A stretch of DNA of 64,000 nt from Streptomyces venezuelae. GTDB taxonomy: Bacteria > Actinomycetota > Actinomycetes > Streptomycetales > Streptomycetaceae. The position numbers were made by a program, and so were the translations under genes. The notes beneath the pieces are model-generated. The model was given only the letters and a program-made list of their open reading frames with translations. It was not told the DNA's origin and searched no databases. The stretch is from the NCBI RefSeq assembly GCF_008642295.1, contig NZ_CP029190.1:2390001-2454000 (forward strand). Direction: 5' to 3'. Shown piece after piece: positions 25,908-31,005 of the stretch; position 1 is the stretch's first letter, and every line of letters starts with the position of its first letter.

Positions 25908-27269
25908 CTATTCCGCCGGGCCGATGTAGTTCTTCAGACCCGGGACCGTCAGGGTGCCGCCGAACTGGCCGGCCTGGACGACCTTCACCTTGGAGAAGAA
26001 GGCGAACGGGACATTCAGCGGGGGCGGGCTCTCCGGGCTGAACTCGATCGGGATGATCCCGAACAGGTTGCCCTTCAGCGACTCGGTGTACATGGTCACC
26101 GTGCCGCCCCGGATCTTCGAGGTGGAGCCGGGCCGGGACTTCAGGTGGGCGACGTTCCCGGACTTCCCGACCGTCTGGTACAGGTCCTTGATGTCGAGCG
26201 AGTCCGCGGTGAACTTCAGGACCTTCTTGGTCTTGCCGCTCGCCGTCTTCACCTCGACGATCCCGTGGTAGTCCAGGCCGTAGAGGGTCAGCAGGGAGCT
26301 GTCCAGGTACCAGGGCTCGTCCGGCAGGAGCGGGATTCCGGACTCCAGTTCGGCATTGGCCAAGGCTTCGGCGTCGCGGGTCGGACACGGGAACGGCTCC
26401 TTGCCGTCCGGGTCCTTCGTCGCCTCGGCCTTGTCTTTGTCCTTCTCCTTGTCGGCGTCCTTGTCGTCGGCGTCCTCGGCCTTGTCGTCAGCCGTCTTGC
26501 CGTCGGCCGACGGCTTCTTGCCCGTCTCGTCCTTCGGGGTGGTCGCGGTGTCCTTGACCTCCTGGGACAGTTCGGACACCGGCACGCCGGCCTTCTTGGC
26601 CGCGTCCCGGATCTCCTGCTCCCTCGGGTCCGGGGTGGACTTCGAGGAGGGCGCGGAGGGGGCAGGGGCGGCCGGCGTCTGGGGCGCGGGGGCGGCCGGC
26701 TTGCCGTCCAGGCCCTCGAAGAAGCCCTTGATCTTGTCGCCGACACCCAGCGGATCCAGCGGGTTCACGGTCTTGGTGGGGGTCGGGGTCGCAGCCGGGG
26801 CCGGGGCCCCGCCGGTCTGCTTCTCCGTCTGCTTCTCGGGCTCCTTCGCCGCCGGCTTGACCGCCGACGAGGACGCGGACGGCTTGACCGAGGGGCTCTT
26901 CGACGCGCCGGGCCGCGGGGTCGCGCCGGGCGACGTACCGGGCGAGGGCGTCTTGGAGGGGGACTTCGACGCGGACGGCGAGGGCGACTTCGAGGCGGAC
27001 TTGCTCTCCTCGTCCGTCGGCTCGTCGGAGCGGGTCACACAGGGCCCGGGCGCGAAGGGGATGTCCTTCTCGTCGGCCAGGGCCAGCTTCGGCGCCATGC
27101 CCATGCCCACGAACACCGCGGTGGGCATCGCGGCCAGCGCCATGGTCTTGCCGACGGGTATCTGGAGCTTCGTCAGCAGCGACTTCCTGGGCGCCGCGTG
27201 CCGCGGGCCCTTCCTCTCACGGGACTCTGCGTCTGGGGCCACGGCCCGCTGCGTCTCGTCACCCCGCAC
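25908..27269 (-). CDS. secreted Pro/Lys/Asp-rich protein with a DUF6230-like C-terminus
   Basis: Unnamed protein of about 453 aa. A basic N-terminus precedes a hydrophobic stretch (GKTMALAAMPTAVFVGMGMA) ending LALA-DE, a probable signal peptide. A long low-complexity region follows, first Ser/Pro/Lys-rich, then charged and full of Asp and Lys, interrupted by DKIKGFFEGLDG. The last ~100 residues fold-like segment contains LKFTADSLDIKDL, VPFAFFSK and TLTVPGL, which resemble FKVRADELVGEDL, SPFAFSQ and TFTLPDL of the DUF6230 gene two places upstream. GTG at 27269 is chosen because GGGAGG ends four bases before it; an ATG at 27284 is the alternative. It overlaps the DUF6114 gene by 11 bp, so the two are coupled. 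Function unknown. Confidence 0.75.
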   Translation of the reverse strand: MRGDETQRAVAPDAESRERKGPRHAAPRKSLLTKLQIPVGKTMALAAMPTAVFVGMGMAPKLALADEKDIPFAPGPCVTRSDEPTDEESKSASKSPSPSASKSPSKTPSPGTSPGATPRPGASKSPSVKPSASSSAVKPAAKEPEKQTEKQTGGAPAPAATPTPTKTVNPLDPLGVGDKIKGFFEGLDGKPAAPAPQTPAAPAPSAPSSKSTPDPREQEIRDAAKKAGVPVSELSQEVKDTATTPKDETGKKPSADGKTADDKAEDADDKDADKEKDKDKAEATKDPDGKEPFPCPTRDAEALANAELESGIPLLPDEPWYLDSSLLTLYGLDYHGIVEVKTASGKTKKVLKFTADSLDIKDLYQTVGKSGNVAHLKSRPGSTSKIRGGTVTMYTESLKGNLFGIIPIEFSPESPPPLNVPFAFFSKVKVVQAGQFGGTLTVPGLKNYIGPAE

Positions 27270-27783
27270 TGTTCCTCCCGCCATCGGCGTGGGCAGTCGT
27301 CTCGGTCGCGTAGTCCGTTTCCGTCTCGCGCGGTCCGGCTCCGGCGACGGCGGGCACCCGGTCCGCTTCCTCGGCGGGCACCCCGGGCGCCCAGGAGAGG
27401 GCGAGGCAGCCGCCCACCAGTGCGCAGAGGAAGCCCATGAAGAAGCCGCCGAGGTTGGACACCGGCAGCGACACCAGGCCCAGCAGGAGCGTGGCCACGC
27501 CGGCGAAGATCCGGATGCCCTGCTGGAACCAGAGGGCCAGGCCCAGCGTGATCAGCAGGACGCCGATGATGAGGGCACCGGCACCGCCGGTGGTCGCCAT
27601 CGCGATGGTGATATTGCCCAGCCGGACGTCTGCGTACGGGAAGTACGCGATCGGGACGCCGCCCAGCAGAGTGAACAGCCCGGCCCAGAACGGCCGCTTG
27701 CCGCTCCAGCCGTGGAAGCGGTAGTACACCACGGTGAGCCAGTGGTCCTTGGTGGCGGCGTTAACCGGGGCCTGGGGGTTCAT
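27259..27783 (-). CDS. DUF6114 domain membrane protein
   Basis: Integral membrane protein of about 174 aa that I recognise as a DUF6114 member; the family has no known function. From the ATG at 27783 (GGGAG ten bases upstream) a cytoplasmic start with WLTVVYYRFHGWSGKRPFW leads into four hydrophobic helices: FWAGLFTLLGGVPIAYF, IAMATTGGAGALIIGVLLI, FAGVATLLLGLVSLPVSN and FFMGFLCALVGGCLALSWA. An amphipathic linker (WFQQGIRIF) lies between the second and third. The tail is polar with Glu and Ala. It lies 110 bp after the DUF6230 gene and overlaps the next gene, forming a three-gene unit that may be a membrane anchor for secreted partners. Confidence 0.85.
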   Translation of the reverse strand: MNPQAPVNAATKDHWLTVVYYRFHGWSGKRPFWAGLFTLLGGVPIAYFPYADVRLGNITIAMATTGGAGALIIGVLLITLGLALWFQQGIRIFAGVATLLLGLVSLPVSNLGGFFMGFLCALVGGCLALSWAPGVPAEEADRVPAVAGAGPRETETDYATETTAHADGGRNSAG

Positions 27784-27893
27784 GGACAACAGCTCCCTGG
27801 AAACGGTGGTACGGAGAACTAGGTGGAGCCCGGACGGGCGGGCGGGCACGGCCGCAGCCGTCGCCCACCCGTCCGGTCAAGCACCGGGAACGA

Positions 27894-28535
27894 TTACTTC
27901 TCGTCCTGGTAGCACGGCTGGTCGCCGCTGAGCAGACGGAGCTTGAGGTCGGGCAGGGTGAAGGTACCCGCCGTCGTCGCCCACGCCTTCTGCCGCACGT
28001 TCGTCAGCGTCGCCGTCTTGGCGCGCTGCGAGAACGCGAACGGGCTGGACACGGTGCCCGGCTGCGGCTTGGTGGCGTGCGACTTGTCGCCCACCGCAAC
28101 GCCGATGTCGAGCTGCTCGAACTTCGCGTCCGCGTCGAGCTCGGCGACATCCAGGTAGATGTTGTCCGCGACCGCCGGACGGCCCTTGTGGCCCGTCTGG
28201 AGCTTCAGGGTGATGTTGCCGATACCGGGCACCGGAGTGACCAGCGACTGGCACATGTTGGTGATGGTGGCCTTCTTGAACCCGGAGATGGTGACCGGGT
28301 GCTTCTGAGGCTTGCCGTGGAGGTCGTGGCCCTCGGCGATACCGCCGTACTGGATCAGGTCCTCACCGACGAGCTCGTCGGCGCGCACCTTGAAGTCCTG
28401 GCCGGAGACGCTGAAGGACGCCGCGAGGGCGCCCTGCGCGAGACCCACACCCACCGCGGCGGTCGCCGCGATGCTCGGCACCATGACGAGCGCGAAGCGC
28501 TTCCATCTGGTCCCGCCACGAACCTGGGAATTCAT
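27894..28535 (-). CDS. DUF6230 family secreted protein
   Basis: Protein of 213 aa of the actinobacterial DUF6230 family; database records sometimes call it cholesterol esterase, for which I see no catalytic motif. The start at 28535 follows GGAGGA. A basic N-terminus (MNSQVRGGTRWKRF) precedes a hydrophobic segment (ALVMVPSIAATAAVGVGLAQ) with probable cleavage after GALA. The mature part is beta-rich, with FKVRADELVGEDL, a single Cys in ITNMCQSL, SPFAFSQ, TFTLPDLKL and a second Cys near the end (QPCYQDEK). No active-site pattern is evident, which suggests a structural or binding role at the cell surface. It heads the three-gene DUF6230/DUF6114 operon. Confidence 0.85.
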   Translation of the reverse strand: MNSQVRGGTRWKRFALVMVPSIAATAAVGVGLAQGALAASFSVSGQDFKVRADELVGEDLIQYGGIAEGHDLHGKPQKHPVTISGFKKATITNMCQSLVTPVPGIGNITLKLQTGHKGRPAVADNIYLDVAELDADAKFEQLDIGVAVGDKSHATKPQPGTVSSPFAFSQRAKTATLTNVRQKAWATTAGTFTLPDLKLRLLSGDQPCYQDEK

Positions 28536-29125
28536 GTTGTTCCTCCTTCTCGGACGTACATCTCCGGTCGGGGCCCTGCCCGTCCTGGGATGGGAGAAGT
28601 GCTACGTCCTCGGGAAGGAGCGCAGGAGTCCGTGGCGCGGATCCGCGTCAGGTACACCGGCGATCACCCCCGAGCGACAACCACTGGGCCACGCGTCCGC
28701 GCAACCTGGAGGACAGGCCCTGCCGGTGTGGCAGAGACCCCCCTGTCCTTGGGCCGATGTCACTGCCATCGACCCGCCCGGTGGGGACCCATCACCGCGC
28801 TCCGGGTAAGCGGCTCTGCGGGATGGACCGAGCGTGGCCGATCGTGGTCCATTCCGTGCCGCGGCACAAGGGGGTTCGTTACTGGCGGGTAACGGGTGGA
28901 TAACCGGGGTGCGACCCGGCGCCGTCGAGTGGCCACAGAGGGTGTCACCATGGGCCACGACAGAACCCCTGAATCCATCCGCAAGCGGACAGATCCAGGG
29001 GTTCGATTTACTGCGAGTAACAGCTGTGTCGATTGCCAAGTTTTGGCAAAGTACGGCTGCTGTTGGCCTTTGTGTCAACAAATCGCCGAAGCGCTCCGGC
29101 GATGTTCCAGCGCTCCGGATCCGGC
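28536..29125. promoter_or_regulatory. 590-bp intergenic region with three palindromes
   Basis: No convincing gene here. It lies upstream of the DUF6230 operon and downstream of the thioredoxin/TPR gene, both on the minus strand. Three operator-like inverted repeats stand out. They are CGTTACTGGCGGGTAACG at 28877-28894, TTACTGCGAGTAA at 29008-29020 and TTGCCAAGTTTTGGCAA at 29033-29049. The first two share a TTACTG...GTAA pattern and may bind one regulator. The long leader and less GC-rich stretches suggest a regulated promoter for the operon. Confidence 0.55.
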
Positions 29126-30281: not shown

Positions 30282-30378
30282 CTCCAACGGCGGCCCCGCG
30301 CCCCGTGATCTGAACCACATGGCTGCCACAGTGACGCGGCTCACGGCGGTTTGGCTACCGGCCGGTATGGTCCTCGCC

Positions 30379-31005
30379 ATGCACTCGCCTGATGTCCCCT
30401 CCGGAGCCGCCGGCCGGACCGGCCGCCCCCGCAGCGCCTCGGCGGACGCCGCGATCCTCGCCGCGACCCGGGACGCGCTGTGCGAGCTGGGCTGGTCGAA
30501 GGTGTCGATGGGCGATGTGGCGGCGCGGGCGGGGGTCGCCAAGACCACTCTGTACCGGCGGTGGTCGGGGAAGAACGAGCTGGTCGTGGACGCGGTCGCG
30601 GAGCTCTTCGACGAACTGGAACTCCCGGACCGGGGCTCCCTGGAGGCGGACGTCGAGTACGTGGTGCTGCGGTTCGCGGAACTGCTGCGGCGGCCGGAGG
30701 CGCGGACGGCGCTGATGGCGGTGGTCGCGGAATCCACCCGCGACGAGGCGCTCCGGGACCGGATCCGGTCGGCGATCGTGGACCGGCAGAAACGTCTCGT
30801 CGTACTGGGCCGGGAACGGGCCCAGGCCCGTGGCGAACTCCCGTACGAGGAGGACGAGGACCTGGCCGGCCGGACCACGGACCTGATCTTCGACGTGATC
30901 GCGGGCACGGTGGTCCATCGCGCGCTGGTCAGCTCGGAGCCGGTGGACGAGTTGTGGGTGGCCACGTTCACCACCCTCCTGATGCACGGCCTACGCGGCA
31001 CGTGA
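30379..31005 (+). CDS. TetR/AcrR family transcriptional regulator
   Basis: DNA-binding repressor of about 208 aa. The N-terminal TetR helix-turn-helix covers residues ~20-65 (DAAILAATRDALCELGWSKV, then MGDVAARAGVAKTTLYRRW). A helical ligand-binding domain follows (ELLRRPEARTALMAVVAEST, ...VHRALVSSEPVDE), resembling the TetR_C_11/16-type regulators. The ATG at 30379 is preferred: TATGGT ends eight bases upstream, fitting a leaderless message, and the protein then has a normal short N-terminus. In-frame ATGs at 30367 and 30319 are alternatives. The palindrome at 30259-30281 is its probable operator. Ligand and further targets are unknown. Confidence 0.88.
   Translation: MHSPDVPSGAAGRTGRPRSASADAAILAATRDALCELGWSKVSMGDVAARAGVAKTTLYRRWSGKNELVVDAVAELFDELELPDRGSLEADVEYVVLRFAELLRRPEARTALMAVVAESTRDEALRDRIRSAIVDRQKRLVVLGRERAQARGELPYEEDEDLAGRTTDLIFDVIAGTVVHRALVSSEPVDELWVATFTTLLMHGLRGT

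Follow-up and report, generated by a model that had tools for sequence, protein, structure and literature searches.

In a 64,000-nucleotide stretch of Streptomyces venezuelae DNA (hereafter the window), a three-gene operon on the minus strand encodes a secreted protein of the DUF6230 family, a DUF6114 membrane protein and a secreted stalk protein whose C-terminal domain (CTD) is, by profile and structure-model comparison, a remote homologue of the DUF6230 protein. Besides this homology, the analysis directly established a conserved gene order, fusions of DUF6114 with the CTD, beta-oxidation genes near the DUF6230–DUF6114 pair in some lineages and an operator-like dyad shared with fatty-acid genes. 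We propose that the operon specifies an envelope system binding long-chain hydrophobic substrates (fatty acyl chains, alkanes), with a carrier, a membrane partner and a dock, and we give this proposal a probability of slightly under one half (about 0.48). The three genes, flanked by genes for a pyruvate kinase and a thioredoxin-like protein, and the CTD lie as follows.

27894..28535, minus strand: DUF6230 gene, encoding a secreted beta-protein (PF19741, AlphaFold2), 'cholesterol esterase' in older annotation
27259..27783, minus strand: DUF6114 gene, encoding a small membrane protein (PF19609, three hydrophobic segments)
25908..27269, minus strand: stalk protein gene, encoding 453 residues from a GTG, or 458 from the ATG at 27284 (open reading frame (ORF), homologue starts)
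25908..26330, minus strand: CTD of the stalk protein, its last ~140 residues, a remote DUF6230 relative

When the CTD profile (38 rows, 36 used) was compared with the DUF6230 profile (129 rows) by hhalign, 133 columns were aligned with a probability of 91.6 and a score of 44.4, whereas 100 column shuffles did not exceed 18.4 and the reversed profile scored 11.3. Distant CTDs were required for this result, as the close stalk homologues by themselves gave a probability of 1.2 and no relation in hhalign. The CTD profile also weakly matched one DUF6230 ORF (L054, E 0.0018). AlphaFold2 models, calculated from alignments that kept the two families apart (68 and 77 rows), reached a predicted local distance difference test (pLDDT) value of 90.8 for DUF6230 and likewise for the CTD (stalk residues 296–458). 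Along the profile alignment, strand and non-strand states agree in 104 of 129 residue pairs (81%), a value that none of 174 circular shifts of the strand layout equalled (mean 56%, maximum 78%). An earlier reading of the DNA from its letters (the sequence-only reading) had suggested a shared fold for the two proteins, and both the profile scores and the agreement of the models in strand layout bear it out.

The motifs from which that suggestion arose fared less evenly. All six are present (stalk residues 356–368, 425–432 and 444–450; DUF6230 residues 48–60, 164–170 and 191–197) and their order is the same in the two proteins, but only the pair TLTVPGL/TFTLPDL is in register. In the profile alignment, the partner of FKVRADELVGEDL is WYLDSSLLTLYGL and not LKFTADSLDIKDL, while VPFAFFSK stands opposite AKTATLTN and not SPFAFSQ. 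Sequence searches of the PDB gave no match at E≤0.1. Structure searches with the CTD returned lipocalin rows at E 0.14 with a probability of 0.05–0.06, which is not significant; TasA and TapA were not among the listed rows, although they may have the same fold.

The operon's plan is conserved in Streptomyces, an outcome in favour of the sequence-only reading, which had proposed this check. Of 80 Streptomyces loci from named genomes (the best 80 of 559 confirmed stretches), 77 have DUF6230, DUF6114 and the CTD in this order on one strand, with the domains spanning 2.3–2.7 kb; the remaining three have their CTD no more than 1.6 kb from the end of a contig. The order is likewise kept in all 20 canonical loci taken from 81 Streptomyces genomes, and all 81 genomes searched, that of the window included, contain matches to the three families. 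Across the phylum, DUF6230 was found in 22 of 296 genomes and 8 of 192 genera. Single TGA codons noted inside some matches of these genome searches look like profile matches overrunning the true stop. The genome of the window has its sole CTD match in the operon itself, and carries a second DUF6230–DUF6114 pair (G000:C1:806431-807227; L006, 5267–6318) with a 10-nt overlap between its genes. Near this second pair are genes for a cytochrome P450 and a beta-lactamase-family protein. Several DUF6230 and DUF6114 genes stand in tandem at L050, L051 and L021, and near one distant pair there is a weak second DUF6230-like ORF (L023, 2–544, minus strand, E 0.002).

Fusions of DUF6114 with the CTD into a single frame were found in 15 ORFs of the 156 loci examined. 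Thirteen are second loci of the 81 genomes (L035–L047, fetched for their coinciding frames), and the others are L053 and L018, the latter from another family. A hydrophobic segment separates the two domains in all 15. In the 13 fused second loci, the CTD begins within 21 residues of this segment in 11 and after 40 and 84 residues in the other two, while in L018 and L053 it lies more than 140 residues beyond. Since 11 of the 13 place the CTD so close to the hydrophobic segment, the long stalk is not essential. The existence of DUF6114–CTD fusions also places the CTD, on sequence evidence, on the membrane side together with DUF6114.

When plasmids were searched by tblastn with a distant DUF6230, the single record to match came from a haloarchaeon, Natronococcus (E 2e-8). 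From a protein search with such a distant member, two proteins were obtained. On the plasmid (L155), genes for a DUF6230 protein (E 1.5e-9) and a DUF6114 protein (E 1e-25) are followed by one whose secreted product contains a long stretch of acidic repeats and showed no CTD homology at E≤1e-3. The three-gene layout (L155, 2899–5389) recalls the Streptomyces plan.

The neighbourhood of the pair points to fatty-acid catabolism in some lineages. In one actinobacterial order, 6 of 39 genomes, all of a single family, have the DUF6230–DUF6114 pair, and in five of these six FadB and thiolase genes share a stretch of 12.5–14.4 kb with it, FadB lying 2.5–3.6 kb away. As compared to this, none of 36 control stretches from three of those genomes contained FadB or thiolase, and the controls as a whole gave one acyl-CoA-synthetase-like and one acyl-CoA-dehydrogenase match. 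On the Natronococcus plasmid, four genes stand on one side of DUF6230 at distances of 2–6 kb: one for a short-chain dehydrogenase and, 3–6 kb from the pair, those for acyl-CoA synthetase, SCP2 and acyl-CoA dehydrogenase. Biotin carboxylase and LamB/YcsF genes are on the other side.

A further connection comes from the leader. The ~360 nt upstream of the DUF6230 gene (28536–28895, minus strand) show block-wise conservation in 77 other Streptomyces loci, and contain the following elements.

28878..28893, no strand assigned: operator-like dyad GTTAC-N6-GTAAC, in 74 of 78 leaders
28825..28850, no strand assigned: conserved block GGACCACGATCGGCCACGCTCGGTCC, kept across the 78 leaders, window included
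28658..28749, minus strand: che1 RNA (RF02935), leader of DUF6230, 94.7 bits against a gathering score of 54.1, model 1–91 of 91
28603..28620, minus strand: 5' arm of a possible hairpin (anti-Shine-Dalgarno), from the minimum free energy (MFE) fold
28543..28558, minus strand: 3' arm of the possible hairpin, including the Shine-Dalgarno sequence, paired with 28603–28620 in the MFE fold

The dyad occurred in none of 1560 shuffles. Its consensus, with at most one mismatch, is found at nine places in the genome of the window, as compared to none for the reversed pattern. One place is the operon, and three others (a raw count) lie directly upstream of fatty-acid genes, namely a thiolase gene, an AMP-binding gene of the acyl-CoA-synthetase type and an acyl-CoA dehydrogenase gene beside a TetR gene. 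At the last of these (G000:C1 near 6478643, L173), a TetR_C_32 gene stands beside an acyl-CoA dehydrogenase gene with the dyad between them or at their starts, and is a candidate regulator of the operon. The window also contains, a short way from the operon, another TetR-family gene (TetR_C_11; 30319–31005, plus strand).

Published accounts list che1 as a known motif of unknown function (PMC8079986, PMC8388888, PMC11678152), and in one of them the S. lividans copy precedes a gene attributed to cholesterol metabolism (PMC8079986). No second che1 was found elsewhere in the genome of the window or in 14 other fetched regions, the second locus included. In the MFE folds, the Shine-Dalgarno sequence pairs with an upstream arm in 71 of 73 leaders (97.8% of cells paired). 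As the arms hardly vary among the leaders and show no covariation or compensatory change, the folds only suggest a Shine-Dalgarno hairpin before the DUF6230 start codon; the fold energy is not unusual (z -1.15).

Published expression data bear on the substrate. SCO5420, named 'cholesterol esterase', is reported to rise almost 37-fold on Tween, with SCO5423 as pyk2 (PMC7494193), and from its name and the gene order we infer that SCO5420 is this DUF6230 gene. Two Geobacillus proteins, P21 and P16, are described as inducible by long alkanes and as found in the insoluble fraction (PMC2676291); their orthologues are given as GK2770 and GK3040, the former clustered with alkane monooxygenase and beta-oxidation genes (PMC10867098). 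In the open-licence PMC papers searched, DUF6114 is not named, DUF6230 appears in a promoter-table row of one paper, and any of SCO5420, SCO5421 and SCO5422 in one paper. The genes Sfla_1909–1911 (hypothetical, hypothetical, cholesterol esterase), perhaps this operon, are listed among 59 core genes more than 5% divergent between S. pratensis strains (PMC4239341, Table 3).

In the mechanism that we infer, long-chain substrates would be bound outside the membrane and then passed to it. DUF6230 would act as the secreted beta-protein carrier and DUF6114 as its membrane partner, while the stalk CTD, a tethered copy of the carrier fold that is fused to DUF6114 in some paralogous loci, would dock DUF6230; the system would be regulated together with beta-oxidation. 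A cell-surface complex, one of two proposals of the sequence-only reading, is plausible, whereas nothing pointed to a secretion apparatus, the other proposal, which we have dropped. A wider claim, which we hold to be doubtful, is that the operon represents an unrecognised route of long-chain fatty acid or alkane uptake in cells without an outer membrane, common to Gram-positives and haloarchaea, in which a secreted beta-protein carrier and a small membrane protein, joined in Streptomyces by a tethered dock, would share a regulator with beta-oxidation and have their own leader RNA.

Several observations weigh against the proposed substrate-binding system. The sixth genome with the pair has only an acyl-CoA-synthetase-like match, at 72.9 bits no better than the 62.3 bits of a control. 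The five FadB/thiolase neighbourhoods are one conserved neighbourhood and not five independent events, because the genomes are related and the queries were drawn from one of them. Beta-oxidation neighbours were not found among the proteins scanned at L159 (six proteins), L160 (four), L162 (five) and the second locus of the window's genome (four); at L161 one protein was scanned, and L163 was left out. Five of the eight dyad places outside the operon are not by core beta-oxidation genes: three are by genes for a CocE-type hydrolase, an acyl-CoA thioesterase and a succinic semialdehyde dehydrogenase, one is inside a thiamine pyrophosphate (TPP)-enzyme gene and one within an ORF ahead of its MreB part. 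A looser pattern matches 10 places as compared to three in the control, and some dyad sites are therefore due to chance. As given in PMC2676291, neither palmitic acid nor tributyrin nor trimyristin induced P21 and P16, and the probable kinship of these two proteins with DUF6230 rests on peptides with a weak score: two published P21 peptides, compared with both ends of the DUF6230 profile, gave -1.0 bits, with shuffles at -2.5 or below (2000 shuffles; 373 of 2001 scored). Finally, two 'cholesterol esterase' genes of unknown paralogy respond to other conditions, Sven_0933 rising under a nitrogen-related condition and SACTE_4612 on xylose or xylobiose.

The operon could instead serve tolerance and not uptake, shielding or repairing membrane and wall against detergents, free fatty acids and alkanes, or exporting or rearranging envelope lipids. 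The induction by Tween and alkanes and the neighbouring genes fit this explanation too, and the authors of the P21/P16 work list uptake, tolerance or degradation as options (PMC2676291). The co-occurrence with catabolic genes better suits nutrition, and we regard tolerance as unlikely. Still less probable is a surface layer or fibre, in which DUF6230 would polymerise outside the cell and the tethered CTD, with the same fold, would nucleate or anchor it, as TapA does for TasA. Homologous free and tethered domains within one operon, and the long stalk of the Streptomyces form, would suit such an assembly, but in the fused forms the CTD lies near the membrane without a long stalk, and expression is reported to follow the carbon source (PMC7494193).

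That DUF6230 is a secreted lipase or cholesterol esterase, with the other two genes aiding secretion or retention, is the least probable explanation, since no His column exceeds 60% in 130 DUF6230 sequences, neither Ser nor His is among the columns kept in distant members, and the P21/P16 authors are cited as concluding that their proteins are not cholesterol esterases (PMC2676291), even though the cloning of a cholesterol esterase gene from Streptomyces dates from 1994 (Nishimura and Sugiyama, in the reference list of PMC2676291), five of 120 listed DUF6230 homologues (of 2581) bear the name and SCO5420 is reported as induced on Tween (PMC7494193). In the 130 sequences, S44 and D129 are conserved at 93%, C95 at 96% and C208 at 82%, and the two cysteines may form a disulfide. 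In 11 distant members, the five columns retained at 75% or more are P103, A135, F168, A172 and L197. The name 'cholesterol esterase' is thus probably misleading for DUF6230.

All three genes of the sequence-only reading are present, with the starts of two corrected. The stalk ORF extends from the ATG over 25908–27284, while the position at which the compared homologues start corresponds to the GTG at 27269; in the database, this same protein (P0001) is entered with 453 residues. For DUF6114, we chose 27783 as the probable start rather than 27849, where the ORF reaches. From this start, the gene overlaps the stalk gene by 11 nt, so that the coupled translation proposed earlier is plausible for these two genes, but DUF6230 is separated by a 110-nt gap. 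The membrane protein between the two secreted ones had been described as four-helical, which is uncertain, as a Kyte-Doolittle scan (window size 19, mean at least 1.5) gives three segments in DUF6114. In the stalk protein, the scan gave no hydrophobic segment, and the signal peptide was assigned by eye. In the stalk, which the sequence-only reading calls charged and Pro-rich, residues 83–299 comprise 16% Pro, 14% Lys, 14% Ala, 12% Ser and 10% Asp. Neither the stalk nor the CTD matched Pfam at E≤1, and one NCBIfam match was insignificant. The homologues of the stalk protein (120 listed of 3896) are mostly 'hypothetical protein', three being named 'Hydrogenase expression protein HypF'.

Among known systems, the cholesterol esterase of Streptomyces (S. 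lavendulae) has its name in common with DUF6230 homologues, but DUF6230 has no conserved catalytic His. Geobacillus P21 and P16 are likewise secreted and of ~200 residues, with N-terminal peptides said to resemble that esterase (PMC2676291), but the likeness to DUF6230 was assessed from peptides, not full sequences, with the weak score of -1.0 bits. The che1 RNA matches the leader over its full length, whereas its model includes neither the dyad nor the possible Shine-Dalgarno hairpin. The first two genes are members of Pfam families of unknown function, PF19741 (DUF6230: E 5.3e-50, 169.9 bits, gathering score 27.5, profile 1–145 of 145) and PF19609 (DUF6114, ORF 27259–27849: E 3.7e-31, 108.4 bits, gathering score 27.9, profile 1–106 of 106), which are silent on the CTD homology, the DUF6114–CTD fusions and the fatty-acid gene link. 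The conserved leader and this link to the catabolism of fatty acids and alkanes go beyond the sequence-only reading, and they concern families that all the Streptomyces genomes searched contain and a core pair that extends to a haloarchaeon. The passage of long-chain fatty acids and alkanes across the thick wall of bacteria without an outer membrane is poorly understood, and the substrate-binding system, if true, would supply defined genes together with a candidate operator and a leader RNA for studying wall crossing in S. coelicolor. In Gram-negatives, fatty acids are taken up through FadL, and the operon would resemble FadL-type uptake in its proposed role only, as FadL is an outer-membrane barrel.

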